64,000 bases of DNA. Origin: Ferruginibacter sp. (GTDB taxonomy: Bacteria > Bacteroidota > Bacteroidia > Chitinophagales > Chitinophagaceae). The notes beneath the pieces were generated by a model that saw nothing but the letters and a program-made list of their open reading frames with translations, had not been told where the DNA came from and made no database searches. The translations under genes and the position numbers were made by a program. Below, in pieces: positions 10,715 to 29,062 of the stretch (positions within the stretch are counted from its first letter, which is position 1; every line of letters begins with the position of its first letter). The stretch spans positions 1 to 64,000 of the forward strand of contig JAHBTN010000015.1 of the NCBI GenBank assembly GCA_019638575.1. The letters are read 5' to 3'.

Positions 10715-10760
10715 GAAACTGTATAACTGTAATTTTTTAAAAACTATAAAATATATTAAA

Positions 10761-12050
10761 ATGAAAATCATTATCTCATCTTTAATTTTTATGCTTACTG
10801 TTTCTATAACAGGCCAGGCACAAATTTTAAAGAAACTAAAGCAAAAAGCAGAATCTACCGTTAATAAAACGGTCAATTCAAAACCTCAAAATAATGAGGC
10901 GGAAACAGCCGGTAATACTTCAGAATCGGCAACAACAGAAAACACGGCACCAGAAACCAGTTCGCAACCCACAACTACATCTCAGCCAACAACATCTTCA
11001 TCAACAATAAACAACAATAAGATGGAATACCCTTTTATCATGATTTCTGATGCAAAATTTTATTTCGCTGATAAGCCGTTTACCAACAGTAATGACGGGG
11101 CAAAAACTTCTTTTACCTCACAGGATTTTATTTACGGACGAATGGAGTTGGGCGGAAAAACACTAAACGATGTATTTAAAATAAGTGCGGAGCCTGCTAA
11201 AGGTTTTCATTATTTGAACTATGGGATATTGATAACACCAAAAGACAAAAGCAAAATTAAATACGCCCAATCGATTGAGAATACCGTTTATAATTTGAGC
11301 CACCCTATTTTGATCAGGGAAAATGAAATGAACAACACCTGGCTCAATTTTGATGTGCTGGCAGACCCTGCTAAAATTAATACATTCGAAGGCCCCACAA
11401 CATTGCCTGAAAATATAAACGAGCTAAAATTTCCTGCCGGCATGGATAATCATACGGGCAAAAACAATATAAGACGAATTTTTCCGGCCAATGGCGAATA
11501 TACAGTTCAATTAGTTTTATGGAACTATTCTTTTGATGATTGGGGTGTACCGTTAGAAAGTGAAAAGAACTTAGTTGCCCTTGGCACATTCGATTACAAC
11601 TTCAGCGCAAAAGATGCTGCCACGCTTATCGATAACTCAACAAAACGTACCGATGCGATTGAGATGAGCAAAAAAATGAAAACCAAACTTCATAAACTTC
11701 CGGATTGGTGGAGCAAAATATATAAGTCAAATGAGGCTATGTTAAGTGCTGCAAAGCTTACACCCATGATTAAATCTTATATAAGCCAGTGGGGGCTTAC
11801 CTATATTACGCATAGAATTTATCCATATAGCAATACCGGGTGGACCTTATTTACCGATAGCCAAACTGGGTTCCCGGTGTCTCGTAGGTCAAATGCCGAA
11901 ATATATCTTTTATATAAAGATAAAGACGGCACCTGTCATATAGCTTCTGTTACACTCGATGAAAAATATGCTGGGGGCGGCACGTATGGATCTCCATATT
12001 TAAAGGGATTGTGGAACGATGAATTTATTGATTGCAGCGCTATAAAATAG
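10761..12050 (+). CDS. Secreted protein of unknown function with low-complexity linker
   Basis: Encodes 429 residues. A signal peptide ends near GQAQ. It is followed directly by a basic helix (ILKKLKQKAES), then a Thr/Ser/Glu/Pro-rich linker (about residues 40-90), then a folded-looking beta-rich domain of about 330 residues that ends in aromatic segments such as WTLFTDSQTGFPVSRR. I do not recognise the domain. The helix after the signal peptide recurs in the gene at 13866 and resembles the start of a Bacteroidota class of exported proteins (some OmpA-like). It opens a co-directional run of envelope genes reaching to about 22.1 kb. Confidence 0.6.
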   Translation: MKIIISSLIFMLTVSITGQAQILKKLKQKAESTVNKTVNSKPQNNEAETAGNTSESATTENTAPETSSQPTTTSQPTTSSSTINNNKMEYPFIMISDAKFYFADKPFTNSNDGAKTSFTSQDFIYGRMELGGKTLNDVFKISAEPAKGFHYLNYGILITPKDKSKIKYAQSIENTVYNLSHPILIRENEMNNTWLNFDVLADPAKINTFEGPTTLPENINELKFPAGMDNHTGKNNIRRIFPANGEYTVQLVLWNYSFDDWGVPLESEKNLVALGTFDYNFSAKDAATLIDNSTKRTDAIEMSKKMKTKLHKLPDWWSKIYKSNEAMLSAAKLTPMIKSYISQWGLTYITHRIYPYSNTGWTLFTDSQTGFPVSRRSNAEIYLLYKDKDGTCHIASVTLDEKYAGGGTYGSPYLKGLWNDEFIDCSAIK

Positions 12051-12096
12051 TGCGTATAAAAGACCAAACCATTACTATTATTTTAATAAAATAACA

Positions 12097-12666
12097 ATGA
12101 AGAAATTTAAATCAGCCTTAACAACAATAGCTATTGTAACGTATTCACTTATGCTATTTTCTTCCTGCAACAACAGCGGTAAAGATGCGCAGGCAGTAAT
12201 AGACAAATATTGTGAATTAAATACGAAAGTACACAATGCTGCTGAAGGTGCAGCAAAAGATGCAGCAATGGCAGAAAAGAAAGCTTATGAAAAAGAAGTG
12301 GATGATAAATATTTTAATGACAGTAAAACTTATCAAATTATTATGGAAGGAGTAAAAAAATGCGACGAAATGAATTCTGAAAATAAAAAGGATATCAATT
12401 CATCTGCTACTAATGCAGACGCTGAATTGCCATCAGCCTATGGTGATGCATTGTCAGTTGCAAACAACTATTGTGCTTTGGTTGATAAAGCAATCGCTGC
12501 CGCACAGGGTGGAAATGAAGCAGAACTAAAAAAAATAATGGCTGCAAAAGTAATTTTTGAAAACAACATGAATGAGAGTTTCAAAGATAAGCCGGAAAGA
12601 AGAGATACCATTTTCAAACTGATAGAGCCCTGCATGAAAAAAGAAGTGAGAATGCAAAATCAGTAA
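12097..12666 (+). CDS. Small lipoprotein of unknown function
   Basis: Encodes 189 residues. The signal peptide ends in a clear lipobox (MLFSSCNNSG, Cys at about residue 24). The mature part is Ala/Lys/Glu-rich and helical, with two similar halves each beginning near a YC dipeptide (IDKYCELNTKVHNAAEGA and ANNYCALVDKAIAAAQGG) and each closing near a Cys (VKKCDEMN, IEPCMKKE). This looks like an internal duplication of a helical hairpin. No named family. The stop is 3 bp from the next start, so they are cotranscribed. Confidence 0.62.
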   Translation: MKKFKSALTTIAIVTYSLMLFSSCNNSGKDAQAVIDKYCELNTKVHNAAEGAAKDAAMAEKKAYEKEVDDKYFNDSKTYQIIMEGVKKCDEMNSENKKDINSSATNADAELPSAYGDALSVANNYCALVDKAIAAAQGGNEAELKKIMAAKVIFENNMNESFKDKPERRDTIFKLIEPCMKKEVRMQNQ

Positions 12667-12669
12667 ATC

Positions 12670-13077
12670 ATGCATTTAATAAAGACAATGCTGATTTTAG
12701 TTCTATGCACAGGCATTAATATTATGATGCTGGTGGTTGCGACGGTGTTTGATTTGTTGTTGTCAGTAATTTCTTTCCCTGCATTAACCATCGTTCTCTT
12801 TGCATTGGCAGGTTTGTATTCAGGAATATTTTGTCTAGGCCTGGAAAAAGAATTGAATGAAATGAAAAATAAAAAAGCTGTCATATTAGCTATGTTGATT
12901 TGGACTACTATTATATGCGCCCTGCTATTTGTAATAATAGCGCCGCTTAGTGGGTATGGGTATAATAGTGCATTAAAGACTTTTGCGGTAGCGGAGATTG
13001 CAGCAGTGTTTATTTTTTGGAGGAGAAAATTCTATTATGAGGCAGGCTTTTCTGTTAAGGGTAAAACAATTGAGTAA
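12670..13077 (+). CDS. Small four-helix membrane protein
   Basis: Encodes 135 residues with about four hydrophobic helices (near 4-26, 30-52, 64-88 and 98-116) and a short cytoplasmic-looking loop ELNEMKNKK. No recognisable motif. It is packed between two lipoprotein-type genes with gaps of 3 bp and 13 bp, so it belongs to the same transcript. Confidence 0.55.
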   Translation: MHLIKTMLILVLCTGINIMMLVVATVFDLLLSVISFPALTIVLFALAGLYSGIFCLGLEKELNEMKNKKAVILAMLIWTTIICALLFVIIAPLSGYGYNSALKTFAVAEIAAVFIFWRRKFYYEAGFSVKGKTIE

Positions 13078-13090
13078 CCAATAAAAGCCA

Positions 13091-13819
13091 ATGAAAACAT
13101 TTGTATTTACGGCAAGCGCATGTATGATTGTAGCCTGTAGTTATGCGATAAATTCTACCCGGGAAACGGAATGTAGGATTGTAAAAATGATTAGTAATAA
13201 AGGCGATACACTAAATATTCTGTACGATACAACCGGAAGGGTACAAACTATTACTGAGATGAATGGACATGTTACTTCTTTCAACTATTGTGGCAATACA
13301 ATTATTGCAATTGAAACAAACAAAGGTGTTATTTCTTATAAACGTATAATGACACTTGGGTGCAATGGAATGATGAGTAATTTGTATGAAGAAAAATTTT
13401 TTGTTGGATTTTCCAATTGGGTTTACAGATCATACACTTTCAGTGGAACAGCACTGACCGGAATTACCACTATTCTTTCGTCCGGCATCACTCCTATACA
13501 AACTATGTTTACATGGAGTAATGGCAACTTTATTTCCGAATCATCAGGTGCTGTAAAACAAGGATTGCTCAGTGAAAATCAATATGAATATTACGAAGAT
13601 AAACCTGTACAACCAGGCGATTACTGGCAAATAAACTTATTATCTACCCTGGGTATTGGAAACGGATTATATCAAAATAAAAACCTGTTGAAGAGCATCA
13701 GGTCGGGGAATTCCATCACACAAATTAGCTATGAATTTGATAAGGATGGAAAAATTATTTCAATGACAAGAACAAACGGAACTGATCAAAAAATATGGTA
13801 CTACAATTATGGATGCTAA
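13091..13819 (+). CDS. Putative lipoprotein with YD-repeat-like sequence
   Basis: Encodes 242 residues. The N-terminal signal ends at IVACSYA, consistent with a lipobox. The mature region is beta-rich with strand pairs such as LNILYDTTGRVQTITEMNGH and ISYEFDKDGKIISMTRTNG. These resemble the YD/RHS-type repeats and DUF4595-like beta-meander lipoproteins of Bacteroidota that build beta-barrels or cocoon-like sheets. The number of repeats is too small for an Rhs toxin. Role unknown. It is followed by a small secreted helical protein 46 bp downstream. Confidence 0.58.
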   Translation: MKTFVFTASACMIVACSYAINSTRETECRIVKMISNKGDTLNILYDTTGRVQTITEMNGHVTSFNYCGNTIIAIETNKGVISYKRIMTLGCNGMMSNLYEEKFFVGFSNWVYRSYTFSGTALTGITTILSSGITPIQTMFTWSNGNFISESSGAVKQGLLSENQYEYYEDKPVQPGDYWQINLLSTLGIGNGLYQNKNLLKSIRSGNSITQISYEFDKDGKIISMTRTNGTDQKIWYYNYGC

Positions 13820-13865
13820 AAGTGACTGTTAAATGTATTATCTAAAAAACTAAAACCATAAAACA

Positions 13866-14219
13866 ATGAAAAAGATAATCTTTATCCTTATACTCTCCTT
13901 AGGTGCCGGAAGCATGACACAGGCACAGATTCTAAAAAGACTCAAAGAAAAAGCAAAAGAAGCAGTAAAGAGTTCCACAGAAAGGTCTGAAGATAAAGTG
14001 GTAGACAAAGCTATAAACGCCCCTGCCGACAATATCACAGACTCAACCTTAGACAGGATTGGAAGAAAAGTGAATTCTATCTTCAAAAAGAAAAATAAAA
14101 AAGAGAACAATGCTGTAAAACCCGAACAGGAAAATAAAACAGACAGCGCAAGCTATCCCGTACAGGAATTGGTGAAACAAACAGATAGCACTACCAATAA
14201 ATCCGGAGATCAAAATTGA
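13866..14219 (+). CDS. Small secreted basic helical protein
   Basis: Encodes 117 residues. A signal peptide ends near TQAQ. It is followed by ILKRLKEKAKEAVKSSTE, a lysine-rich helix matching that of the gene at 10761. The rest is charged and low in complexity (Lys, Glu, Asn, Asp), probably disordered, with STLDRIGRKVNSIFKKK in the middle. In Bacteroidota such a preamble often precedes an OmpA-like domain; here no such domain follows, so the protein is either a stand-alone helper or a shortened family member. A broken relative may lie at 18143. Confidence 0.5.
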   Translation: MKKIIFILILSLGAGSMTQAQILKRLKEKAKEAVKSSTERSEDKVVDKAINAPADNITDSTLDRIGRKVNSIFKKKNKKENNAVKPEQENKTDSASYPVQELVKQTDSTTNKSGDQN

Positions 14220-14293
14220 AATGCAAAATGTTTAGTCAAACAAGGAGACACTTCAGGAGGGCAATTTTATTATCCACAATTAATTCTGATAAA

Positions 14294-15871
14294 ATGAAAA
14301 AAGTATTATTTATTATTCTTAGCGTTCTGTTTTTTAGTATGCAGGCTATCAGTCAGGACCCATACATTAAACTAAAACAAAAGGCAGCGGAAAGTGCTAC
14401 ACTAAAAGAGGATTTAACAAAGGTAACAATAGCAGAATCTGACAGGCGGTTGATTTGGACAAAAAAAGCAACGATTCCTTTCAAGCCCTTTGAAATGGTT
14501 GATAAGAATGGCAAAAAGATAGATCCAAATGAAACGATTACTGTTAATGGAAGAAATGAAAAAGCAAAAGTATTTTTTGACAAACTAAATGAGATTGAAA
14601 AAAACCAAAATACAAAAGGTTATTCTCTCCGGGATAGTAAATCACCATTGGTAATTAAAGTAATCACACCCAACGCTGAATTAGGAGGCAGGGTTTCGCA
14701 AATGTCAAAAAGAGTAGGACAGTTAAAAGAAGAAAGTGAGTTGGGGGCAATTTTTTCAACTACAAAAAAAGTAGGAACCCTAATGCTTAAGCCTTACGAG
14801 ACTTATAGTGGTGCTGAGAAAAATAAATTAAACCAAACCAGGTTTTCGGTTGATGCATCAGGACAGCTTAGGACAACCTTTATTCCGAGGAGATACACTT
14901 CCTATAATCCATCAAAAACACCGAGTAAAACAACCGCTGGTCAGGCCGGAAAACGTGGGCAAACATTTGGGCATGTAAAAAATAGGAATGAAATATCTGT
15001 AGATGGTTCCTACCACCCTGCCGGAGAAATTACTCCATTAAAAGTGATTGGTGACATTTCATCTAAAGAATGGTCTTTGGGTATTATGTCAACTTTTAAA
15101 GCCGGTGTAAAGGCTGATCTGTTACGGTCTGCAAAAATTTATTCTTTTAATCCACAAAGTCCGGGGAAAAGCATGTCAGAATTTAAAATCCGTGCCAGCG
15201 CTAATGTTTATGCAGGATTATTTGGCCATTCAATGGATTTGTTATCCGGTGGAATGGAATTTTTTGCTCCGGCAGATTCCAGCAAGAAGATGACAGCCAA
15301 AGGACAAATTTTGATTGCCGGCCTTACGGTCCTTAACCTCAATGAAAGCATTACTCAATCCAAGTCTTATAATAAAACAACCGGAATGTCTGTTGACAAG
15401 TCTTTTCCAATAACAATTCCCATCTGCTGCGGTGTTGACTTTGCCGGAAAAATTGGGATAAAAGGAAACGTAGGGCTTAATTACAGCGGGGCAATTTATC
15501 GCACAATTGTAAATCTGCAGGCAGAACCTGTAATAGACATTAAAGGTTATGCAGAGGCTGGTCTTTCAGTTGGCGGCATCGCCAAATTTGGCATAGGTGG
15601 TGAATTAACATTTTTAAAAGGACATATTCCGCTGAATGGCCTCGTAGGTATTTGGGCACAAAATGCCGAACAGATTGTTGTTGGCTACAACTATTATATG
15701 GGGTTCGACTTATCGGTGTTAAGTGGCCGGCTTTATGGTTATGCCGATATCTGTGCTCCGCTTTTTGGATGTTACAGGATAGGAGAAGTCGATTTCTTTA
15801 CATGGGGAGGGTTTAAAGGCTCCGGCACTTTTGTAGAAGGTGGAAACTATTATGTACTTGCTAATTTGTAA
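14294..15871 (+). CDS. Secreted beta-rich protein, possible partner of the vitellogenin-like gene
   Basis: I place the start at the ATG at 14294 (525 residues), because MKKVLFIILSVLFFSMQAIS is a typical signal peptide; the longer frame from 14216 adds a charged extension without hydrophobic character. The N-terminal third is helical and charged, with a KLKQKAAES segment. The last 300 residues are rich in alternating strands and Gly (CCGVDFAGKIGIKGNVGL, GYAEAGLSVGGIAKFGIGGE), suggesting a large beta-sheet or barrel-like structure. I do not know the family. The next gene, 30 bp downstream, may be a lipid-transfer-type protein, and the glycine-rich sheets here recall the beta-sheet half of such proteins; that link is inference. 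Confidence 0.5.
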   Translation: MKKVLFIILSVLFFSMQAISQDPYIKLKQKAAESATLKEDLTKVTIAESDRRLIWTKKATIPFKPFEMVDKNGKKIDPNETITVNGRNEKAKVFFDKLNEIEKNQNTKGYSLRDSKSPLVIKVITPNAELGGRVSQMSKRVGQLKEESELGAIFSTTKKVGTLMLKPYETYSGAEKNKLNQTRFSVDASGQLRTTFIPRRYTSYNPSKTPSKTTAGQAGKRGQTFGHVKNRNEISVDGSYHPAGEITPLKVIGDISSKEWSLGIMSTFKAGVKADLLRSAKIYSFNPQSPGKSMSEFKIRASANVYAGLFGHSMDLLSGGMEFFAPADSSKKMTAKGQILIAGLTVLNLNESITQSKSYNKTTGMSVDKSFPITIPICCGVDFAGKIGIKGNVGLNYSGAIYRTIVNLQAEPVIDIKGYAEAGLSVGGIAKFGIGGELTFLKGHIPLNGLVGIWAQNAEQIVVGYNYYMGFDLSVLSGRLYGYADICAPLFGCYRIGEVDFFTWGGFKGSGTFVEGGNYYVLANL

Positions 15872-15901
15872 ACTAAGGTAATCAAACATCATTTTGCATT
15901 A

Positions 15902-17575
15902 ATGAGAATTATGATTATTTCATTCATATTATTTTGTTCGTGTTCATATAGCTGTTATAACAGCATGACTGTCTTTTCCAATACAGGGAAAGCCAGTAGT
16001 CAATTAGTTTATTCGTACAATAGCGATGGAGTAGGTTATAGTGATATACAAATGCTTTACAATACCGATTCCAATGTAAGAGCTCAACCATTTTTTAAAA
16101 GGCCCAGCCTTCAAACTACCTCTGTAAACATAAGTTGTAAAATAAGGAAAACAATTATTGAATCAGCTAATAACAATTTGCAGGTTTGTTTTGAAATATT
16201 GAGTCCCGTTGTAAAGATTGAAAATAATTCTTTACCTGTAGATGTTGATGCAATCACAAAAGAAATGATTATTCCGGTGTTTGCAGAGATGTCAGTCAAA
16301 GGAAATATACTGAACATTAAAACGGATTCTTCCGTTTCTTATATAACAACAGGTATTATAAAAAATATATTGAGCAATACGCAGACTGTCATATTATCTA
16401 CGCATAAGAAAAGCTGGCTGGTAACAGAAGAAAATACGAATGGTTTGTTTAATGCAAAATATACAGTGGTTAATAAATACGCTGACAGCACAGAATACCT
16501 GAAAATAAATACCGGGTATGAAAAGATAAGATCTGCAAAAAAGAATCAAAAACTTCTTCCACAAAATGTAACGGCGGTAATCATAAATAAATATGGCAAC
16601 ATACAAAGAATACATACTTCTGAATCTCTTATTACTATGTTTGGTACAGATACCATTGTAGCATCGGGCAGCAGCACAGAGTTTGTTCTGCTGTCATCAA
16701 CCACTGCAGATCAAAAGGAAATATTGAACTTTCAACAGATTGCACATTCCGGCAAATATTTAAAGTCTGTCGCATTAAGCGATCCTATCTCCGACGAAGA
16801 AATAAACAGACTTGCTTATAAGAACACACTTGCCGACGACAACTTTGAATCGCTTGTTGCAAAGTTGAAACTGGTAAATATTAAGAATAAGCAATTTGAA
16901 GATGACCTGAGTAAAAAATTCAGGGCATTGGCGTGGCTTTCAGAAGTTGATTGCAGCAGGATGGCGGAATTGCTTAAAAATGCTGAACCCGGGTCTGATA
17001 CTTTCAGCGTAATAAGCGGTGCATTGGCAGCTGTTGAAACTCCGTTTTCAATAAATGAATTGGCATCTATCATATCAGCACGCAGGAATGAAGAAGCTGT
17101 TTTGGTTGAATTATTACCAGTACTGGCTGTATCGCCCACACCAACAGCAAATGCTGCAGATATCATTAGAGAAATAGCTTTTTCAAAATTGTCCAATCCG
17201 GTTATCCGATCTATGGCACAGCTTACACTCGGAGGGATGGTAAAGAATCTTGAAAGCATTGACAGAAAGAAAACGGAAGAATTAACAGGAGTTATTGTTG
17301 ACAAAATGAAGAACAGTACAGATACAATTCAGCAACTACTGGTGTATGGCAATACCGGATCATACCGGTTGTTACCTGTGTATTATTCCTATCTCTCTGA
17401 TACTGCTGTTTCAGTTGAAATAAAGAAAGCTGCAGTATTTGCCATGCGGTTTGTGAATTACATTGAGGTAGATTCTCTGCTTGTTAATTTATCAACTGGT
17501 AACGATTCTTTACTGTCAAAAGCCGCAAATGAAACTATTTCATTCCGAAAGGAATATCTAAATGAAAACTATTAA
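15902..17575 (+). CDS. Exported protein with vitellogenin-N-like layout (candidate lipid-transfer protein)
   Basis: Encodes 557 residues. The N-terminus is a short signal peptide with Cys at FCSCSYSC, possibly a lipoprotein. Residues about 25-280 are beta-rich. Residues about 290-557 are a chain of helical hairpins. Within it, SGALAAVETPFSINELASII, LAVSPTPTANAADIIREIA and IRSMAQLTLGGMVKNL resemble, to my eye, the helical superhelix of the large lipid transfer protein family (vitellogenin N, MTP, apolipophorin), including the GALxAxxTP turn and the PTP turn. The beta-then-helical order also fits. HEAT-like repeats of another kind are the alternative. It is cotranscribed with the secreted proteins around it. 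Confidence in the gene is high, in the family moderate to low. Confidence 0.55.
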   Translation: MRIMIISFILFCSCSYSCYNSMTVFSNTGKASSQLVYSYNSDGVGYSDIQMLYNTDSNVRAQPFFKRPSLQTTSVNISCKIRKTIIESANNNLQVCFEILSPVVKIENNSLPVDVDAITKEMIIPVFAEMSVKGNILNIKTDSSVSYITTGIIKNILSNTQTVILSTHKKSWLVTEENTNGLFNAKYTVVNKYADSTEYLKINTGYEKIRSAKKNQKLLPQNVTAVIINKYGNIQRIHTSESLITMFGTDTIVASGSSTEFVLLSSTTADQKEILNFQQIAHSGKYLKSVALSDPISDEEINRLAYKNTLADDNFESLVAKLKLVNIKNKQFEDDLSKKFRALAWLSEVDCSRMAELLKNAEPGSDTFSVISGALAAVETPFSINELASIISARRNEEAVLVELLPVLAVSPTPTANAADIIREIAFSKLSNPVIRSMAQLTLGGMVKNLESIDRKKTEELTGVIVDKMKNSTDTIQQLLVYGNTGSYRLLPVYYSYLSDTAVSVEIKKAAVFAMRFVNYIEVDSLLVNLSTGNDSLLSKAANETISFRKEYLNENY

Positions 17576-17625
17576 AAATGTATTTCAGAACAATAAATTA
17601 ATAACCACTTTAAAAATTATCAATT

Positions 17626-18015
17626 ATGAAAAAAACGCTTTTATTATCAGTATCATTATTCTTAATGGCTGTATGCAGTGCACAGTATAAAAGAACGAAT
17701 CAAATAAAGCCGGGGAATGGGGATACTACATGGCATCAAATTCAACCTAAGCGCATGCACATTACCAACGGCAATGTACTTATGAAACAGGAGCCGGGTA
17801 AATTCAAGCTCTTTGCTACTTATAAAATGGGAAAAGTAGCCAATTGGTATGCAATTGATACAAAGGGAAACAAAATTCCTGTAACCTATTCAGCCAAAGG
17901 AAAATCGACTTGCCAAGTGTGTGCATTCCTTCCAAATGGGATGGCTACTTGTTATGAAATAAGTTGCGATGACTTACCAAAGCCTAAAACAGATGCTGCA
18001 AAAACTGCACATTAA
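17626..18015 (+). CDS. Small secreted protein of unknown function
   Basis: Encodes 129 residues: signal peptide ending near CSA-Q, then a compact domain with three Cys (CQVCAFLPNGMATCYEISC has four with the last), probably disulfide-bonded or metal-binding, and a Lys/Ala-rich tail. It has an FKLFATYKMGKVANWYAID strand pair. No family recognised. It is 50 bp after the candidate lipid-transfer gene and on the same strand. Confidence 0.55.
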   Translation: MKKTLLLSVSLFLMAVCSAQYKRTNQIKPGNGDTTWHQIQPKRMHITNGNVLMKQEPGKFKLFATYKMGKVANWYAIDTKGNKIPVTYSAKGKSTCQVCAFLPNGMATCYEISCDDLPKPKTDAAKTAH

Positions 18016-18142
18016 AATATCATTTTTATTAAAGAATACAGAATCGCAAAACTGAAGCCTTGTTACAAAGAATATGAAATAAAGAAAACATACCGAAATA
18101 AAATTCATTCATTCAATTAAAATGATCACAAAAAACTAGATC

Positions 18143-18398
18143 ATGAAAAAAAATATTTTATCAGCAACTTTTATTATTCTTTTTATAGGATTGAAAGCAC
18201 AGCAGGCCCGGGTTAAAAAAGGAACCACCCATCCTCAAGAAAAATGGAAAAATTATTGCAAAAGATCTGGATAAGCAAAACTATCTCAATAAAAGGAGAT
18301 CGACCAATAAGGCTTTCAACAAAGTGGACTCTTTTTTAAGAAGCAGAACAGACACTACTAAAAAATCCCCTACAAAAAAAACTGAAAAGAAAAATTGA
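18143..18398 (+). pseudogene. Frameshifted small secreted protein
   Basis: ATG at 18143 starts a signal peptide (MKKNILSATFIILFIGLKAQ) and a basic stretch, but the frame stops at 18274 after 43 residues. A second frame, offset by one base, is open from about 18246 to the TGA at 18396-18398. It encodes IIAKDLDKQNYLNKRR, then VDSFLRSRTDTTKK and a lysine-rich end. Joined, the two parts resemble the small secreted protein at 13866, with the same order of signal peptide, basic helix, VDSFLR/VNSIFK-type segment and Lys-rich tail. One indel between about 18225 and 18260, near AAGAAAAATGGAAAAATT homopolymers, would restore it. It is a decaying paralogue or a sequencing error. Confidence 0.5.
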
Positions 18399-18415
18399 AA
18401 ATCAATCTTCATAAA

Positions 18416-19303
18416 ATGATGCCTCCATTACAAAATAACAATTTTGTAGTGGCTGAAGCGGAAATGAAGCCTGCTCCGATAGGAACGTTATTAACAAAAC
18501 GACCGGATAAACACATGGGAATAATATTCGACTGGTCAGTGTTTGTTTTTTCTTTTTTACTCGGTATTTTGTTTTCTTTCTTTACCAGTAGCATTGCATC
18601 TTCTACAATGCCCTGGATTGTATTGGCAATGGTGCCCTGCTATGCAGCAGCAGTGGTATTAAAACAAGCACCGTTATCGCTTCGTATATCTAAAATAAAT
18701 AAAACAGATGATTTTAAGAGGATAAAGTCGGCAATGTTTAATATTCAATTCCTTTTACATTGTATTGTATTCTGGGTTATGGTATTTGCAGCCCTGTCTC
18801 AAATTGTAATTTACGGTGTGGTTAGCTGGTGGGATGCGGATAACCAGTTTCCTCCTTTTCTCATCGGTTTAGTTGTAGGTATTACACTTACGCTAATGGT
18901 ATATATGTTGCGTTCGCAACTAAATTATAAACACGGCAAATGGAGATCCAAAAACAAGCCCCCTTCCGTTGTAGAGACAAAAATTGAAAAGAAAAAAAAT
19001 ATACTCCGTCAGGAATTTATTGCCGATCTACTTCTTGTTGTTTCAGTAAGTTTTTTTACCACGTATTTATGGGGCCCGGTGGTTAGATATTGCATTTCTT
19101 CCTCCAATTTAACAACGAACAAAGGAGTTGTTGAGTTTGTGTTTTTGGTTTCACTATTATATATATGTATTTATCTCCCTTTCCGGTTAGTGTACCTGGT
19201 AGAAGAAGGCGGCTATACAAAAAGACAATGGCTTTCCTTTCTCTTTTTACTTATAATGATAATGATACGCGGCGTAGTATATGCCTATTTCAACGACTGG
19301 TGA
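18416..19303 (+). CDS. Polytopic membrane protein of unknown function
   Basis: The ATG at 18416 gives 295 residues; the longer frame begins at a TTG that overlaps the stop of the preceding broken gene. About seven hydrophobic helices are visible (first near IIFDWSVFVFSFLLGILFSF, last near WLSFLFLLIMIMIRGVVYAY), with a basic loop KHGKWRSKNKPP between helices four and five. No catalytic or transport motif is evident. It lies in the run of envelope genes and precedes the S74 repeat protein by about 120 bp. Confidence 0.6.
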   Translation: MMPPLQNNNFVVAEAEMKPAPIGTLLTKRPDKHMGIIFDWSVFVFSFLLGILFSFFTSSIASSTMPWIVLAMVPCYAAAVVLKQAPLSLRISKINKTDDFKRIKSAMFNIQFLLHCIVFWVMVFAALSQIVIYGVVSWWDADNQFPPFLIGLVVGITLTLMVYMLRSQLNYKHGKWRSKNKPPSVVETKIEKKKNILRQEFIADLLLVVSVSFFTTYLWGPVVRYCISSSNLTTNKGVVEFVFLVSLLYICIYLPFRLVYLVEEGGYTKRQWLSFLFLLIMIMIRGVVYAYFNDW

Positions 19304-19422
19304 TTTTAAAAAAAAAACTGAAGCAAAATACAAAGATGATACAAACAGTGTACCAATATTTTTTATTGATTAATTATTAGAAAATGAAAAATGAATTAGT
19401 ACAACTATTAAAATTATCAAAC

Positions 19423-21810
19423 ATGAAAAAACTTTTTCTTACACTTATCAGCTTTTATTCATTCGTGAATGTACAAGCTCAAAATGTAGGTATTGGTACG
19501 AATAATCCTGACGCATCCTCAAAATTAGAAATTACCTCTGACCATGCAGGTCTTTTGATTCCACGGCTTACTTCACCTCAAAGAACCGGCATCAGTAACC
19601 CGGCTACCGGATTGATGGTATTTGATACAGATTCCTCTGCATTCGCATATTACACCGGTAGTGTATGGCTTTTTTTGAACAGCAAGAACGACAAATCTAA
19701 TGACTGGAGTACCACGGGTAATGTAGGTACAGGAGCAGATAATTTTATAGGTACTATAGACAATACATCTCTTTATTTTAAAATCAATAAAATAAGGGCA
19801 GGACAAATTGATTCTATTGGGTACAATACCGGTCTTGGGTTTAGGACTTTTGATTCTATTACATCAGGTAAATACAATACCACTTTGGGATATAAATCTT
19901 TTGTGAGTAATACAACTGGAAATTACAATACAGCAATCGGCGCTAATGTCTTGCAGAATAACACTTCCGGGTCATGTAATACTGCTAATGGGTACCTGGC
20001 GCTCTACTTCAATACTTCAGGTAATGGTAATATTGCAAGTGGTGATCATGCACTTTTTTCCAATACCACAGGTGGAAGTAATACCGGTACAGGTTATCAG
20101 GCGCTCCTATATAATAGCACCGGCAATGGTAATTCAGCATATGGCTTTCAGGCGCTCAATTCTAATATCTCCGGCAATAATAATACCGCTAATGGTGCAG
20201 GTGCATTATTTAATAACACTACCGGCTATAGCAATGTGGGTATTGGTTTGAAAGCATTACATAATAATACCGATGGCAATTATTTAGTAGCAATAGGCGA
20301 TTCTGCACTATATAATCAAAATGGAGGAGATGGATTTAATACAGCAGTGGGCTCAAAAGCATTATACTCAAATTCTACCGGGAGCTACAACACAGCGAAT
20401 GGATCCTTAGCACTATATAGCAATACCACAGGATACTATAATACTGCTACCGGGGCCAGTGCGCTCTACAACAATTCTACCGGGAGCTACAACACGGCGA
20501 ATGGTTTACTAGCACTATATAGCAATACCACAGGAAACTATAATACTTCTACAGGGAGCAGTTCACTCCTCTACAATACTACCGGGAGCCACAACACAGC
20601 GAATGGTTCACCCGCACTTGTGAACAATACCTCTGGAAATGATAACTGCGCTTTTGGGAGCCACACACTCTACGGCAACACCACTGGCAGCCAAAATACT
20701 GCTGTAGGGTACAGAGCATTGGAGAGTAATAATGGCAATAGCAACGCAGCTTTGGGATATGAGGCACTTCATTTAAATATCACTGGCAGCCAAAATACTG
20801 CTGTAGGGTACAAAGCATTGGAGAGTAATAATGGAAATAACAATGTAGCTATAGGTTATAGTGCACTCTCCTTATCATCTGGAAGCAACCTTGTGGCTAT
20901 AGGAGATTCTGCACTATCCAAGCTTTATGGGGGCAGTGGCCGTAATACTGCCATAGGTTCAAAGTCTCTTTACAACACTACCACCGGTAGTTCCAATACC
21001 GCCACCGGCTTCCAATCACTTTACACAAATAATGGAAGCGGTAACACAGCTAACGGGTCTCAAGTCCTATACTCCAATACCACAGGCTCTGAAAATACTG
21101 GCTATGGTTACGAAGTGCTTTATCGTAATACTTCCGGAAATTATAATACGGGTTCCGGGTCAAAAGCACTCGACTTCAATACCACAGGAAACTATAATAC
21201 TGCATACGGTTACAATGCGCTTAAAACTAATACTTTAGGCGATGGGAATACGGCAATTGGCGTTAACTCAGATGTAACATCCATAGGTTTAGAAAATGCC
21301 ACTGCCATAGGTGGAGGTGCTAAAGTCAATGCCAGCAACAAAATTCGCCTGGGAAATTCATCAGTTACAGTTATTGAAGGACAGGTACCATTTACCACAC
21401 CCTCTGACGGAAGATTCAAAACCAATATCACCGAATCTGTAAAAGGCCTTGACTTTATACTAAAGCTGCGTCCGGTGGTGTATAATTTCCAGACAGGAAA
21501 ATTCAATCAGTTTATCCAGACAGGCAAAATATCAAATGCTATTTACGCCGGCTATTCCGAATCAGAAAAGATAAAGCATAGTGGTTTCATAGCACAGGAA
21601 GTAGAAAAAGTGGCTCAGGAAACAGGTTATGATTTTGATGGGGTAATCATACCTAAGAATGATAAAGATGCTTACGGACTTTCCTATTCTCAATTTGTAG
21701 TGCCCTTGGTAAAAGCTGTGCAGGAACAACAGCAAATGATAGAAAAGCAACAAAAAATGATTGATGCACTGTCTAAGGAAATAGAAATAATCAAAAGCAA
21801 GATGAATTAA
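19423..21810 (+). CDS. Secreted repeat fibre with C-terminal S74 self-cleaving chaperone
   Basis: The start at 19423 (795 residues) is chosen because MKKLFLTLISFYSFVNVQAQ is a signal peptide; the frame opens 13 residues earlier. The mature N-terminus has the NVGIGTNNPDASSKLEI motif common in Bacteroidota fibre-like proteins. About 27 copies of a 17-residue repeat (GNYNTAxGxxALxxNTT pattern) follow, similar to YadA/tail-fibre head repeats that stack as a trimeric beta-helix. The C-terminus is a Peptidase_S74 intramolecular chaperone: SDGRFKTNI with S661 and K666 in the dyad spacing used by phage endosialidases and MYRF, so cleavage before S661 is predicted. A terminal coiled coil (QEQQQMIEKQQKMIDALSKE) would hold the trimer. 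A surface fibre or adhesin is likely. Confidence 0.87.
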   Translation: MKKLFLTLISFYSFVNVQAQNVGIGTNNPDASSKLEITSDHAGLLIPRLTSPQRTGISNPATGLMVFDTDSSAFAYYTGSVWLFLNSKNDKSNDWSTTGNVGTGADNFIGTIDNTSLYFKINKIRAGQIDSIGYNTGLGFRTFDSITSGKYNTTLGYKSFVSNTTGNYNTAIGANVLQNNTSGSCNTANGYLALYFNTSGNGNIASGDHALFSNTTGGSNTGTGYQALLYNSTGNGNSAYGFQALNSNISGNNNTANGAGALFNNTTGYSNVGIGLKALHNNTDGNYLVAIGDSALYNQNGGDGFNTAVGSKALYSNSTGSYNTANGSLALYSNTTGYYNTATGASALYNNSTGSYNTANGLLALYSNTTGNYNTSTGSSSLLYNTTGSHNTANGSPALVNNTSGNDNCAFGSHTLYGNTTGSQNTAVGYRALESNNGNSNAALGYEALHLNITGSQNTAVGYKALESNNGNNNVAIGYSALSLSSGSNLVAIGDSALSKLYGGSGRNTAIGSKSLYNTTTGSSNTATGFQSLYTNNGSGNTANGSQVLYSNTTGSENTGYGYEVLYRNTSGNYNTGSGSKALDFNTTGNYNTAYGYNALKTNTLGDGNTAIGVNSDVTSIGLENATAIGGGAKVNASNKIRLGNSSVTVIEGQVPFTTPSDGRFKTNITESVKGLDFILKLRPVVYNFQTGKFNQFIQTGKISNAIYAGYSESEKIKHSGFIAQEVEKVAQETGYDFDGVIIPKNDKDAYGLSYSQFVVPLVKAVQEQQQMIEKQQKMIDALSKEIEIIKSKMN
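19867..21330 (+). repeat. Array of about 27 tandem 51-bp coding repeats
   Basis: The repeats encode the 17-residue unit of the fibre protein. Some neighbouring copies are nearly identical in DNA (ACCGGGAGCTACAACAC recurs near 20378 and 20479; CTGGCAGCCAAAATACTGC near 20685 and 20784), which points to recent duplication or gene conversion. Two copies (starting VAIGDSAL) carry a 2-3 residue insertion. Confidence 0.85.
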
Positions 21811-21841
21811 CCACATTATGATTTTTTAAAAACCTTAAAAA

Positions 21842-22129
21842 ATGAAAAAAGCATTATACCACCTTGCGTTTCTTTGTACAACAACAGCGGTAAAATCACA
21901 ATTGTATGTACAAAGTGGGGCTAAGTTTCCTGTAGGCGGCACCGTTACATTGCTGGATGAAGGTTTTATTCAGGAACACGGAGGTGGTACCGCTATCAGC
22001 GGTAACATCGGATTATTGAATCAGGAGATTGCTAAATCGGGTAATCAGCAGGTAAGCCTGCAAATTTTTAATGAAGTAGTAACCGGACAAATGCTGTTTA
22101 CATCTGGCAATGTTAATTTTAAAAAATAA
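21842..22129 (+). CDS. Short secreted protein following the S74 fibre
   Basis: Encodes 95 residues: a signal peptide ending near VKSQ, then a Gly-rich beta stretch (FPVGGTVTLLDEGFIQEHGG, ISGNIGLLNQEIAKSGNQQV). It resembles the first strands of a longer beta-helical secreted protein, so it may be a truncated copy or a small accessory of the fibre, encoded 31 bp upstream on the same strand. No family recognised. Confidence 0.45.
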   Translation: MKKALYHLAFLCTTTAVKSQLYVQSGAKFPVGGTVTLLDEGFIQEHGGGTAISGNIGLLNQEIAKSGNQQVSLQIFNEVVTGQMLFTSGNVNFKK

Positions 22130-22235
22130 CATAATGTTGTTGGCTATACAGCACCACTGTCGTATCCTGTATAAATATAAATACCTTGCACAGGTAATAA
22201 TTAAATAAATATAACAGTGTAAAAACATTTCATCT

Positions 22236-24005
22236 ATGGACAAAGCAATGCAATCAAAATTTGTTGTAAAAGATTTAAAAGTACATAGCAGCGATGAATG
22301 GATGGCTGACGGTACTAAAAAATACCGGCGTGTTTTTGACCGGTACGAACTTAGTTATGTTTATGTAGAGTTTTCATTTTTTAATAAACTGTTTGATGAA
22401 GAAGACTGGGACCTTGATGTTACATTAGAATGTACCTTAAATACATCGAATCCTGTTAAGCTTTGCAGCCTCAAACAAACCCGAAAAGTGAGCAAGACAG
22501 AAAACATTGTTTACATACGTGAAAGCTGGGGCAAACCCGCTGCAGGTGATTTTTGGAAGATTGGAGATTACAAGTGGAGTGTGCTAATTGATAACAATGT
22601 AGTATCTGAAACAGTATTTCATGTAGAAGACCTGGGGCCTGATGCGCTTGCAAAGAACGGATATATCAATATTGAATCAATAAAACTCTTTGAAAGCGAT
22701 GTAACCATAGAAGCAGATCCTGCCAGGAAATACTACAACAAATTTAAACGGGATGAAACCCGTTATGTATGTGCCGAAATTCAGCTAAGGAGTAAAAGCG
22801 AAAAAGGTTTTTATGTTGAGTTGTTTTTTCATTATTTAGATAAAGCCGGGTTTCTAAAAGGAAAATCTTCAGAATTAATTTATGTGAAACCAAATACCCA
22901 ACAACTTCTCTATACGGTTCAAAATGGCTGGGGATCATCTACGCCGGGCTTGTGGAAGAATAATTTTTATAGTATTGATGTTTATTTTATGGAAGTATTA
23001 ATGGCCAGCGCCACATTTGAAGTAGGCGATACCTGGAATGAAGAAACCAATATCAAACCTGTAAAAGTAGATGAAGTAATACCGCAGATTAATATAGTAC
23101 CGAAACCAAACCCCGAAATTCTTTTGCAGAAAAGCCTCGCCCAGCTTAATAGCCTTATAGGGTTGGCTAATATTAAAAATGATGTAAATGAAATGGTAAC
23201 CCTGGTAAATTTTTACAAAGAAACAGGTAAAGATTTTCTCAATAAATTTTCATTACACTCAGTATTTACCGGAAACCCCGGCACTGGTAAAACCACCATA
23301 GCACGAATACTCTCTGGCATTTATCAAGGGCTGGGCATTTTAGAAAAAGGGCATTTAGTAGAAGTAGACCGGGAAACACTTGTGGCGGGGTTTATAGGGC
23401 AAACGGCTATTAAAACAAAAGCTAAATTAGATGAAGCCCTTGGCGGAATATTATTTGTTGATGAAGCATATTCATTGGCCGGTCATGGTTTATCTGAAAA
23501 TGATTTTGGGCAAGAAGCCATTGCCACTATTTTAAAATATATGGAAGATAACCGTGGTAAAATAGGAATCATAGTAGCCGGATATCCAGACAATATGCAG
23601 GATTTTGTCAATAGCAACCCCGGGTTACGAAGCCGCTTTGATAAATATTTTCAATTTCCTGATTATAGCCCCGAAGAAATGTGGGCAATTGCCTCTGCCC
23701 TATTTAATACAGAAAAAGTATCGCCCAATGAAGCAGCATCGGCACACCTGGTGAACTATTTGAAATGGTTGTATGATCAACGAGACGAAAATTTTGGCAA
23801 TGCCCGTACGGTTCGCCAGGTTGTAGCCGAATGTGTAAAAAACCAAAACTTAAGATTGGCAACTATTGCAAAAGAAAATAGAACTACCGAAATGCTGAAT
23901 ACAATAATTCTTGATGATGTAAAAGAATTTGATATTAACGAACCCAATCGTTGGGGGGGCGGCAAAAAGCGCAGTAAAATTGGGTTCAGAAAACAAGATG
24001 ATTAA
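22236..24005 (+). CDS. CbbX/SpoVK-type AAA+ ATPase with duplicated N-terminal beta domain
   Basis: Encodes 589 residues. The C-terminal part (about 300-580) is an AAA+ module of the CbbX/SpoVK/EccA group: GNPGTGKT at 346-353 (Walker A), LFVDEAY with D409-E410 (Walker B), VAGYPDNM and an arginine-finger region GLRSRFDKYF. Such ATPases remodel protein complexes. The N-terminal 280 residues hold two similar beta-rich domains, each ending in a W-G...G-x-W...Y...V...F-x-V-x-D pattern (RESWGKPAAGDFWKIGDY and QNGWGSSTPGLWKNNFY), which I do not recognise and which could bind the substrate. No signal peptide; cytoplasmic. It heads a compact operon with three small envelope proteins. Confidence 0.83.
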   Translation: MDKAMQSKFVVKDLKVHSSDEWMADGTKKYRRVFDRYELSYVYVEFSFFNKLFDEEDWDLDVTLECTLNTSNPVKLCSLKQTRKVSKTENIVYIRESWGKPAAGDFWKIGDYKWSVLIDNNVVSETVFHVEDLGPDALAKNGYINIESIKLFESDVTIEADPARKYYNKFKRDETRYVCAEIQLRSKSEKGFYVELFFHYLDKAGFLKGKSSELIYVKPNTQQLLYTVQNGWGSSTPGLWKNNFYSIDVYFMEVLMASATFEVGDTWNEETNIKPVKVDEVIPQINIVPKPNPEILLQKSLAQLNSLIGLANIKNDVNEMVTLVNFYKETGKDFLNKFSLHSVFTGNPGTGKTTIARILSGIYQGLGILEKGHLVEVDRETLVAGFIGQTAIKTKAKLDEALGGILFVDEAYSLAGHGLSENDFGQEAIATILKYMEDNRGKIGIIVAGYPDNMQDFVNSNPGLRSRFDKYFQFPDYSPEEMWAIASALFNTEKVSPNEAASAHLVNYLKWLYDQRDENFGNARTVRQVVAECVKNQNLRLATIAKENRTTEMLNTIILDDVKEFDINEPNRWGGGKKRSKIGFRKQDD

Positions 24006-25876: not shown

Positions 25877-26380
25877 ATGATAACAACTTCTATTACTAAC
25901 CCCGTTAACGAAGTTATCAGCCACCATGTTTTTGCAAACGTGTTACTGAATAATGCTTCCAGTCAAAAATCGTTGCACGCCACCGTTAGTTTCTCTCCCG
26001 GCGATGTTATATGCAGGTTTAATGCCGGCACAACACAAACCTATGCAACTTACCTAACCGTGCAAACCGGCGCCGACAGCCACATTACACTAATGCCCGA
26101 GTTTTTGCAATACATCAACCACAGTTGTGCGCCCAATGTTTTTTTTAACACTTCAACCATGGAATTGATTTGTTTGCAACCGATACAACCGGGTGATGAA
26201 TTTACTTTTTTTTATCCAAGCACTGAATGGGAAATGGCACAGCCTTTTGTATGTAATTGTGGTAATGATGCTTGCCTGCAGTTAATAAATGGCGCATCGC
26301 ACCTTTCGGTAGAAACGCTTTCAAAATATAAACTAACCGATTTCATCAGGCAGCAGGTAAAACATAAGCTTTCCCTGTAA
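25877..26380 (+). CDS. SET-domain protein (putative lysine methyltransferase)
   Basis: Encodes 167 residues, essentially one SET domain with post-SET. NHSCAPN at 81-87 is the SAM- and substrate-binding knot motif. It is followed by a GDEFTFFY segment with the expected Tyr at 113, then the zinc-binding post-SET cysteines C126, C128 and C133 (CNCGNDAC). The first 75 residues provide the SET-N strands. SET enzymes methylate lysine side chains using S-adenosylmethionine. It heads a three-gene cluster, 16 bp before an ATP-grasp ligase, and a second SET domain is fused to the third gene. The target is unknown. No signal peptide, so cytoplasmic. Confidence 0.87.
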   Translation: MITTSITNPVNEVISHHVFANVLLNNASSQKSLHATVSFSPGDVICRFNAGTTQTYATYLTVQTGADSHITLMPEFLQYINHSCAPNVFFNTSTMELICLQPIQPGDEFTFFYPSTEWEMAQPFVCNCGNDACLQLINGASHLSVETLSKYKLTDFIRQQVKHKLSL

Positions 26381-26396
26381 CAGGCCTAACATTGTT

Positions 26397-27533
26397 ATGT
26401 CATTAACTAACCCATTATCTTCCTTATCGCCCCAGCTAATTAAAGTTTGGGTGTTGGCGCCTTACTTGCAAACAAATGATGCCAATATTGATTATTACTA
26501 CGATTTTACCCAAAGCATTGCCGAATACGAAAAAGCATTTGCACAGCTTGGCATGGAGTGGGTTTGGCAACCGGTTACTTTAAAAGATTACCGCACTGTA
26601 ATTAACAGTATAGCAAAAGAAAAAGACACAGGTAACAAAACTCCTATTGTTTTTAACCTTTGCGATGGTGATGAAGTAAATGGCACCCCCGGGGTTTCTG
26701 TAATACGCCACCTGCACAATAAAGGTTTATTATATACAGGCGCCGATGAATATTTTTACAATATCACCACTTCTAAAATTCCCATGAAGAAGGCTTTCGA
26801 CAAAGCCGGTATTCCAACAGCCTCATGGGTTTCAATCCGCAGCAATAACCAAAACCTGGATAATATTATTGATAAACTGGGCTCCCCTTTAATTGTAAAG
26901 CCCTCTATATCGGGAGGAAGCATGGGAGTTGGTATAAAAAATGTAGTGCATAATAATCCCGGCTTTACAAAACTGGTTGATGACATGTTTAAAGGATACC
27001 GTGGCTGGCAATTGACTACCGATGGGCTGATTGCTGAATCATTTATAAACGGACCTGAATTTACTGTGCTTATTACAGGCTCATACAACAACCCAAAGGA
27101 TGCAAAAATATATACACCGGTAGAAAGGGTTTTTCATGATTCTTTACCCGAAGAAGAAAAGTTTTTATCTTTTGACAGGCTATGGGAAATTTATGAAGAA
27201 GAAACACCCATGCCCAACGATGCTAACTTTTATGAATATGCATTACCCCATGCTGCACTGATTGACAGGATAAAAAAAATAAGCTGGGATGCTTATGTGG
27301 CAACAAAAGGCTGCGGCTATACAAGAGTAGATTTAAGAATGGACAAACAAACCGGAAAACTTTATGTGCTGGAAGTAAATGCACAATGCGGCCTTAGCGA
27401 AGACGAAGACTTTACTTCTATTGGCGCTATACTTAGGTTTAGCAATACCGGTTTTACCCAACTGGTTGCCGAAATTATTAATGATGCATTTACACGCCGC
27501 ACAGCTACTGTATTAAAAAGAAGAATCGCCTAA
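26397..27533 (+). CDS. ATP-grasp ligase (D-Ala-D-Ala ligase-like)
   Basis: Encodes 378 residues with the D-alanine-D-alanine ligase fold: an N-terminal Rossmann-like region, then ATP-grasp with K168 in LIVKPSISGGSMGVG, IAESFINGPEFTV, and metal-binding D312, E326 and N328 (VDLRMD and VLEVNAQCGL). These enzymes form an acyl phosphate on a carboxylate and couple it to an amine or thiol. It is not the cell-wall Ddl: the N-terminus lacks the Ddl GG-x-S-x-E-x-x-x-S motif and the cluster has no cell-wall genes. It lies between the SET gene and the ATP-grasp::SET fusion, with gaps of 16 and 29 bp. Substrates unknown. Confidence 0.85.
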   Translation: MSLTNPLSSLSPQLIKVWVLAPYLQTNDANIDYYYDFTQSIAEYEKAFAQLGMEWVWQPVTLKDYRTVINSIAKEKDTGNKTPIVFNLCDGDEVNGTPGVSVIRHLHNKGLLYTGADEYFYNITTSKIPMKKAFDKAGIPTASWVSIRSNNQNLDNIIDKLGSPLIVKPSISGGSMGVGIKNVVHNNPGFTKLVDDMFKGYRGWQLTTDGLIAESFINGPEFTVLITGSYNNPKDAKIYTPVERVFHDSLPEEEKFLSFDRLWEIYEEETPMPNDANFYEYALPHAALIDRIKKISWDAYVATKGCGYTRVDLRMDKQTGKLYVLEVNAQCGLSEDEDFTSIGAILRFSNTGFTQLVAEIINDAFTRRTATVLKRRIA

Positions 27534-27562
27534 AAAACCTCCTGCTTATTTTCGCCACCACC

Positions 27563-29062
27563 ATGAAAGCATCACAAAATCAAAGTCAACCGTCTTTAAA
27601 GATGCCGGATACACAGGATGAAATCCTGCAACTGAAAATTTGTGTGTTACAACCCGATTACTCTACTTCTGATGTTGATTACCAGTATTACGACCCGGTA
27701 AGAAATCTTAGCCATTTACTGCCTCAATCAAAGTTCGATCATGTATTGTTAAATAAACTAACTACATACAAACAGTTAAAAGAGTTAAAGAAAAAAAACT
27801 ACGATGTTTTTGTAAACCTGTGCGAAGGATATTTGGAATGGAATATCCCCTCTGTTGAAGTGATTTATTTTATGGAACTTTTAAACCTCCCTTTTACCGG
27901 TCCTTCATCACTTTTGTACGATCCGCCCAAAGACCTGATGAAATATGTAGCATACACCGCAGGGATAAAAACCCCCGCCTTTGCATTAATTGAAACAACT
28001 GATTGTATTGATAAAGAAACTCACCACCTGCAATACCCATTATTTGTTAAGCCCGATAAAGCAGGCGACAGCTTAGGCATTGATGACCATTCGCTTGTAC
28101 ATAGTAAGGAGGAGCTTACAACAAAATGTAATGCAATTATTGATGAATATGGGCCGCTATTGGTGGAAGAATATATAGATGGAAGAGAATTTACAGTGAT
28201 GCTTGTTGCCGATGCAGATAATGAAAAGTCGTGCACTGTTTTTAAACCCATTGAATACATTTTTCCAAAAGGGTTTAAGTTTAAAACTTACTCACTAAAA
28301 ACATCAGAACTACATCCCGAAGCAAATATCCCCTGTAATGATCCCGAACTTGAATTAAGACTGAAAGATGCCGCATTAAAAATTTTCCAGGGCTTTGGCG
28401 GTGTAGGTTATGCCCGTTTGGATTTTAGGGTAAATGCAAACAACGAAATATTTTTCCTGGAGATTAATTTTACCTGTTCTGTTTTTTACCAGGATGGTTA
28501 TGAAGGCTCTGCCGATTATATTTTAAAAAATGATGGCATTGGCCAGGTAGGTTTTCTTAAAAAAATAATTGAAGAGGGTATTGCCCGCCACAAACGCCAT
28601 CAAAAAAAATATGTAATGAAGGGGAATGCCATAGCAGGTTATGGTATTTATGCCACTCAAAATATACAAGCCAACGAACTTGTTTTTAAAGGCGAAGAAA
28701 TGGCTCAACGCCTGGTAACACGCCGTTATGTGGAGCATAACTGGAATATTAATGAAATAGAAACTTTTAAAAAATATGCGTATCCGCTTAGTAAAGAATT
28801 GTTTTTATTATGGGACAACAACCCGTCAAACTGGGCGCCTCAAAATCACAGTTGTAACCCCAATTGCACCTACGAAGGGTTAAATGTTGTAGCATTGCGA
28901 AACATAAGGCAGGGAGAAGAACTAACACTCAACTACGCAAGTTTTCTTGATGAAAATATGGAACCCTTTAATTGCCGTTGTGGCGCCGCCAACTGTTGCG
29001 GTTGGGTTACCGGTATTAAAAACAATTCGGTAACAGAAAGAGAAAGCCTCCTCAAAAATTAA
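27563..29062 (+). CDS. ATP-grasp ligase fused to a SET domain
   Basis: Encodes 499 residues. Residues about 22-345 are an ATP-grasp module: K163 in LFVKPDKAGDSLGID, LLVEEYIDGREFTV, and ARLDFRV with E300 and N302 in FFLEINFT. Residues about 350-485 are a SET domain: GNAIAGYGIYATQNI (SET-N), NHSCNPN at 428-434, EELTLNY with Tyr 458, and post-SET cysteines C471, C473 and C478. One polypeptide therefore joins a carboxylate-amine ligase and a protein-lysine-type methyltransferase. With the separate SET and ATP-grasp genes upstream, the cluster has two of each activity. This suggests ligation plus methylation of one peptide, protein or small amine, but no substrate gene is visible. An 84-bp gap follows. 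Confidence 0.88.
   Translation: MKASQNQSQPSLKMPDTQDEILQLKICVLQPDYSTSDVDYQYYDPVRNLSHLLPQSKFDHVLLNKLTTYKQLKELKKKNYDVFVNLCEGYLEWNIPSVEVIYFMELLNLPFTGPSSLLYDPPKDLMKYVAYTAGIKTPAFALIETTDCIDKETHHLQYPLFVKPDKAGDSLGIDDHSLVHSKEELTTKCNAIIDEYGPLLVEEYIDGREFTVMLVADADNEKSCTVFKPIEYIFPKGFKFKTYSLKTSELHPEANIPCNDPELELRLKDAALKIFQGFGGVGYARLDFRVNANNEIFFLEINFTCSVFYQDGYEGSADYILKNDGIGQVGFLKKIIEEGIARHKRHQKKYVMKGNAIAGYGIYATQNIQANELVFKGEEMAQRLVTRRYVEHNWNINEIETFKKYAYPLSKELFLLWDNNPSNWAPQNHSCNPNCTYEGLNVVALRNIRQGEELTLNYASFLDENMEPFNCRCGAANCCGWVTGIKNNSVTERESLLKN

Follow-up and report, generated by a model that had tools for sequence, protein, structure and literature searches.

A conserved cluster of SET and ATP-grasp genes in Ferruginibacter as a candidate pathway to methylated peptide-like metabolites

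Three adjacent genes in Ferruginibacter sp. encode a stand-alone SET protein (SETA), a stand-alone ATP-grasp ligase (GRASP) and a fusion of the two kinds of domain (FUS). We lean towards reading this trio as the central enzymes of a small-molecule pathway, one that would yield a short, peptide-like metabolite carrying methyl groups and that would export it in many relatives. The genes lie in the window, by which we mean the whole 64,000-nucleotide stretch of DNA that was analysed, at the following positions.

25877..26380, + strand: SETA, stand-alone compact SET methyltransferase, 167 aa, BurB-like, with post-SET cysteines
26117..26128, + strand: NHSC motif of SETA, aa 81-84
26397..27533, + strand: GRASP, stand-alone ATP-grasp ligase, Ddl fold, 378 aa
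27563..29062, + strand: FUS, ATP-grasp::SET fusion, 499 aa
27632..28597, + strand: ATP-grasp part of FUS, about aa 24-345
28637..28936, + strand: SET domain of FUS, aa 359-458 (Pfam; the post-SET cysteines continue to aa 478)

Integrity and domain content of the three genes

SETA, GRASP and FUS are intact ORFs on the + strand, separated by intergenic gaps of 16 and 29 bp. Pfam profiles for SET (SETA 37 bits, FUS 51 bits) and Dala_Dala_lig_C (GRASP 60 bits, FUS 79 bits) all matched above their curated cut-offs, so the three genes proposed in an earlier, sequence-only reading of this DNA are borne out by both ORFs and domain searches. Both SET domains have the NHSC motif, the active-site Tyr and the post-SET cysteines (N81-H82-S83-C84, Y113 and C126/C128/C133 in SETA; N428-H429-S430-C431, Y458 and C471/C473/C478 in FUS). 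The corresponding ligase residues are K131, K168, E214, E221, R310, D312, E326 and N328 in GRASP, and K127, K163, E202/E203, E209, R285, D287, E300 and N302 in FUS; those that presumably contact ATP or metal were assigned from Ddl. With the exception of S430 in FUS, every one of these residues was at least 95% conserved among 59 FUS, 51 GRASP and 46 SETA-type sequences, which extends to the relatives the earlier observation that the SET motifs and the ATP-grasp lysines and acids are kept.

The three genes are under purifying selection. Their dN/dS values were 0.125-0.156 against one relative (L005) and 0.065-0.113 against another (L006), low enough to indicate functional coding genes rather than chance reading frames. 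A promoter and terminator scan at the cluster gave signal no better than shuffled sequences. The genome contains four SET matches in total; the other two, of 127 and 137 aa, lack post-SET cysteines and are of a different kind.

Gene order in relatives

We compared 62 neighbourhoods, consisting of the window, 17 loci from a scan of GTDB genome contigs, and sets of 12 and 32 further loci. One of these (L089) holds only SETA and GRASP and belongs to a genome (G212) that has its FUS on another contig (L043). From the 61 FUS loci we left out two near-duplicates (L008 and L058, 97% identity), and one of the remaining 59 (L020) was cut at a contig end, resulting in 58 complete loci. L008, from F. paludis CECT 8366, carries GRASP, FUS and the ABC gene and lacks a local SETA.

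In 50 of the 58 complete loci, GRASP precedes FUS on the same strand. The two genes are no more than 200 bp apart or overlap slightly in 48 of these; in the other two, L079 and L084, the distance is 1067 and 513 bp. The eight loci without a local GRASP were L043, where it is on another contig, L044, L045-L049 and L050. SETA was local in 46 of the 58, namely in 41 of the 50 GRASP-FUS loci and in L045-L049. Six of the nine GRASP-FUS loci without a local SETA had one elsewhere in the genome, and for the other three (L007, L012 and L016; genome completeness not given) none was seen genome-wide. The genes are thus inherited together, and their order is conserved outside this genome, a point on which the sequence-only reading had asked for a check. 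The smallest set common to the loci is FUS, in most cases accompanied by SETA and frequently by an ABC gene. GRASP is a second, related ligase confined to the window's group.

Flanking genes were also considered as members of the system and rejected. Both the upstream genes, at about 22 to 25.6 kb, and the downstream DoxX/MauE-like gene, sigma factor and GTP cyclohydrolase were found only in the window and L005 among 30 neighbourhoods.

SETA resembles an amino-acid methyltransferase

The closest solved relative of SETA was BurB (phmmer E 2.4e-11; next best 2.1e-4), and a SETA profile searched against the PDB matched BurB at 8.3e-17 and the top histone enzyme at 6.9e-8. BurB is described as a SAM-dependent S-methyltransferase of free methionine in the DMSP/malleicyprol pathway of Burkholderia thailandensis (PMC12542666; PMC7496086). 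Like BurB, SETA is a compact SET protein, roughly 170 aa long, with an active-site Tyr followed by x-S-T-E, a post-SET CxC...C and the same spacing from the Tyr to the post-SET cysteines; neither SETA nor the aligned stretch of BurB contains the long insert that FUS has before NHSC. YPSTE was present in 38 of the 46 SETA-type sequences and YxSxE in 45. The two proteins also differ, as HMMER alignments inspected by eye have L-H-S-C in BurB for the N-H-S-C of SETA, and Leu in SETA for the SAM-contacting His72 of BurB. Moreover, SETA is tied to ATP-grasp ligases, and no DMSP-type partner genes were found in the 62 cluster neighbourhoods, in which three plasmid-derived queries (decarboxylase, aminotransferase and aldehyde dehydrogenase) gave no tblastn match at E 1e-5. 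Lysine methylation, the activity initially ascribed to the SET domains, finds no support in that form, the nearest solved relative of SETA being a methionine S-methyltransferase. Judged by its sequence, SETA most likely acts on an amino acid and not on a protein lysine.

The gene context of plasmid-borne relatives was consistent with this. Eight plasmid records contained a SETA relative, and the context was read for five of these, the other three being further Streptomyces.

Plasmid relative 1: beside a diaminopimelate-type decarboxylase
Plasmid relative 2: in a PKS cluster that also encodes an aminotransferase and an aldehyde dehydrogenase
Plasmid relative 3: beside a SAM decarboxylase and an asparagine-synthase-related protein
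Plasmid relative 4: beside a GHMP kinase, a PLP enzyme and an alanine racemase
Plasmid relative 5 (Streptomyces): by a SulP transporter, without an adjoining amino-acid enzyme

Amino-acid enzymes thus adjoin four of the five relatives examined, which favours amino-acid over protein substrates. The SET protein of a plasmid PKS cluster (Eleftheria), which we infer to be of the BurB type, aligned with SETA at E 1.2e-16, and one of the genome's own other SET proteins aligned at E 0.0019. Two relatives of the FUS SET domain were examined, one from Leptospira without an amino-acid context and one unannotated. Plasmid relatives of the ATP-grasp domains had little context, except for a diaminopropionate-type set in Thioflavicoccus, and searches with two FUS proteins found no ATP-grasp::SET fusion on plasmids. 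Around six SETA-type genes not linked to the cluster, inspection by eye revealed nothing clearly informative, L130 apart.

The likeness to BurB raises a special case of the small-molecule reading, in which the SET domains would S-methylate methionine and the ligases would make a sulphonium di- or tripeptide that serves as a compatible solute or as a signal and whose chemistry is akin to that of DMSP. BurB provides the precedent and SETA is its homologue, but the DMSP partner genes are missing from the neighbourhoods. In addition, BurB holds methionine through main-chain contacts (PMC12542666), so methionine specificity is not readable from sequence. We consider this special case unlikely.

The ligases share a fold with Ddl

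GRASP and the ligase half of FUS are members of the ATP-grasp superfamily with, in their predicted structures, a Ddl fold. The GRASP model had a mean pLDDT of 85.4 and a pTM of 0.87, and the FUS model a mean pLDDT of 76.0 and a pTM of 0.72; the best 50 Foldseek matches for each were D-alanine ligases or Van/D-lactate relatives. While the fold and an aligned catalytic core are common to Ddl, GRASP and FUS, both proteins score far under the NCBIfam cut-offs (73 bits for GRASP and 91 bits for FUS against 245.65 for TIGR01205, D-Ala-D-Ala ligase), and the genome's Ddl is a separate gene; a housekeeping Ddl identity was rejected on these grounds. By hhalign, the two ligases were each other's closest (E 4.3e-31 over 328 columns), and they aligned less well with the genome's own Ddl (FUS 1.7e-15, GRASP 1.6e-11). 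They also grouped together in a tree, in which long branches (Ddl, Thioflavicoccus) make the deep order unsure. With these scores and this grouping, the check on membership of a known ligase clade, which could have spoken against a new pathway, did not do so.

The motif N[LI]C[ED]G, present in 57 of 59 FUS and 51 of 51 GRASP sequences, stands by eye at the place of LHG..GEDG in Ddl, which makes D-Ala-D-Ala an unlikely product. A Ser and an Arg, matched by eye to the acceptor-carboxylate site of Ddl, are retained in GRASP and FUS. If these residues have the roles that we take over from Ddl, the acceptor is likely an amino acid whose carboxylate is free.

The SET half of FUS and possible protein substrates

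The SET half of FUS has an extra insert before NHSC, as in protein methylases. A FUS profile search matched KMT2D at 1.5e-11 and did not recover BurB at E 1e-10; with the single FUS sequence, BurB was slightly better (1.2e-10 versus 5.3e-9). In sequence, this domain thus appears about equally close to KMT2 enzymes and BurB.

Its insert and its resemblance to KMT2 enzymes would fit a different explanation, protein tagging, in which a protein would receive amino acids from the ATP-grasp domains, acting like tubulin tyrosine ligases, and methyl groups on its lysines from the SET domains. Eukaryotes have a comparable protein, TTLL12, which like FUS joins a SET-like and a TTL-like (ATP-grasp) domain in one chain (PMC3520985). 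However, its SET-like domain is N-terminal and its TTL-type ATP-grasp domain C-terminal, and it is reported to lack critical residues and, in vitro, the activities for which it was assayed (PMC3520985). FUS is not a TTLL12-like protein, as its domain order is reversed and its best structural matches are of the Ddl type. FUS at a single distant locus has a MATCAP carboxypeptidase and a GshB-like ligase in its vicinity; these apart, the neighbourhoods had no recurrent acceptor-like gene. Considering also that the top structural matches of the ligases are Ddl-type, that SETA is BurB-like and that ABC exporter genes recur, we regard protein tagging as improbable.

ABC genes recur and a precursor peptide does not

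ABC-type membrane genes were present in 26 of the 58 complete FUS loci. Among the 50 GRASP-FUS loci, 21 had, by similarity, an ABC_membrane_3-like gene after FUS and the other 29 had no local copy; six of these proteins were checked, and all matched PF13748 and had no ATPase domain. In the distant group L045-L049, which represents five of the nine g59 genomes with FUS and a single genus, the order SETA, FUS, full ABC exporter and third small SET gene was found in all five (Pfam on two exporters and one SET). The search for a fourth co-occurring gene suggested at the outset thus succeeded in part, as a transporter-type ABC gene is recurrent in relatives, but no ABC_membrane_3 gene was found in the window's genome.

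No precursor peptide gene had been visible in the window, and this remained so in the relatives, where flanks and gaps contained no convincing conserved precursor near the clusters. The 12 most widespread small-ORF groups listed beside the clusters occurred at nine loci or fewer each and resembled, by eye, off-frame or partial readings of ordinary neighbours. A RiPP with a local precursor was rejected on this basis. A graspetide-like system, with the ATP-grasp and SET enzymes modifying a ribosomal peptide, would be in line with the nearby ABC genes and with the modification of graspetides by ATP-grasp enzymes (PMC8939145). Given the Ddl-type ligases and the lack of a convincing recurrent small ORF in flanks and gaps, it is very improbable.

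Anti-phage defence was rejected, as neither the three proteins nor one ABC_membrane_3 protein had a PADLOC match at E 0.01. Phage cargo found no support either: a scan of viral contigs by exact peptide patterns confirmed no relative.

Distribution

The GTDB scan used exact peptide patterns from one protein and thus detects close relatives only; each of its 17 loci had the title of a Bacteroidota group. Across 395 genomes sampled evenly from the phylum (E <= 1e-40 for FUS and GRASP, E <= 1e-15 for SETA), FUS was identified in 17 genomes and 8 of 170 genera, SETA in 16 genomes and 7 genera, and GRASP in six genomes and five genera, all six with FUS. FUS and SETA occurred together in 15 genomes, nine of which belong to one genus (g59) and so do not represent independent events. 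Within the window's family, which the named loci suggest to be Chitinophagaceae, FUS was found in 74 of 244 genomes and 37 of 101 genera. In the order of the distant carrier G211, one of 128 genomes had FUS, G211 itself. G211 and G340 lack GRASP, and their sole SETA-profile match is FUS itself.

A proposed pathway

The account that follows is a prediction as regards the substrates, the type of bond, the acceptor of the methyl group, the sequence of steps, the product with its export, and the biological role. SETA, in the manner of BurB, would methylate a free amino acid with SAM, the methionine sulphur being a candidate and a side-chain amine possible. GRASP and the ATP-grasp half of FUS would convert carboxylates to acyl-phosphates and then to amide bonds, as D-Ala-D-Ala ligase does, with one ligation in the groups without GRASP and two in the window's cluster. 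The SET half of FUS would methylate the ligase's substrate or product, and in many relatives the adjoining ABC-type membrane protein may export this product. The conserved gene order, Ddl-type fold and kept catalytic residues support the ligation and methylation pathway of the sequence-only reading. A small methylated peptide-like product, one of the options it had raised, is favoured, but its N-methylation is just one option, since the best solved relative of SETA S-methylates methionine.

Bacilysin (BacD) and dapdiamide are made by small peptide-metabolite pathways that follow the same logic of an ATP-grasp amino-acid ligase and an export gene; to our knowledge, neither pathway includes a SET methyltransferase. 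In open-licence literature, whose silence does not prove novelty, we came across no bacterial ATP-grasp and SET system, the searches yielding only TTLL12 and one unrelated paper, and nothing on a SET domain with Bacteroidetes and D-alanine ligase. We tentatively propose that the clusters could represent an undescribed class of bacterial metabolites, namely short peptides made by ATP-grasp enzymes and SET-methylated on amino acids, with dedicated ABC export in many producers, widespread in a Chitinophagaceae-like family and with the ATP-grasp::SET fusion as hallmark.

In 37 of the 101 genera sampled from one family, the cluster links SET domains with amino-acid-type ligases, and it offers a compact, testable pathway. 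According to the BurB authors, natural-product methyltransferases were previously known only from other classes (PMC7496086). SET enzymes are read almost by reflex as protein-lysine methylases. Seven of the eight plasmid SETA relatives are annotated 'protein-lysine N-methyltransferase', although SETA is nearer to BurB than to any solved lysine methylase. The cluster suggests amino-acid substrates for a number of the bacterial proteins with this annotation.

Genomic neighbourhoods of SET and fusion genes

Small SET proteins annotated as protein-lysine N-methyltransferase or hypothetical were found at four loci beside an amino-acid decarboxylase, aminotransferase, SAM decarboxylase or alanine racemase. 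They may represent a broader class of SET enzymes that methylate amino acids.

Small SET proteins and amino-acid-enzyme neighbours:
L102:4860-6598
L104:4782-9250
L127:3914-4783
L128:1124-5606

In the distant single-genus group (L045-L049), a third SET protein of 118-120 aa follows the ABC exporter.

L046:11756-12112, third SET protein (equivalents in L045, L047, L048 and L049)

The distant ATP-grasp::SET fusion of L044 is flanked by a gamma-glutamyltranspeptidase on one side and an FGase, MATCAP and GshB-like ATP-grasp set on the other, which could together form a peptide-tag cassette.

L044:4041-12099, distant fusion and flanking genes

By eye, the gene following the lone SETA-like gene of genome G259 also resembles a gamma-glutamyltranspeptidase, a pairing that echoes L044.

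L130:4237-6520, SETA-like gene and next gene, same strand

Two fusion copies each carry one in-frame stop, reflecting either decay or sequencing error.

G402:C1:57366-58769, fusion
G522:C116:1182-2570, fusion

Upstream genes in the window

19384-24005, 808-aa protein, then AAA ATPase

The 808-aa protein matched tail-spike family phrog_4636 in the PHROG comparison, as well as Peptidase_S74; none of the nine proteins tested upstream of it (10256-19303) had PHROG matches. The AAA ATPase resembles SpoVK, CbbX and EccA, scoring under the cut-offs of all three.
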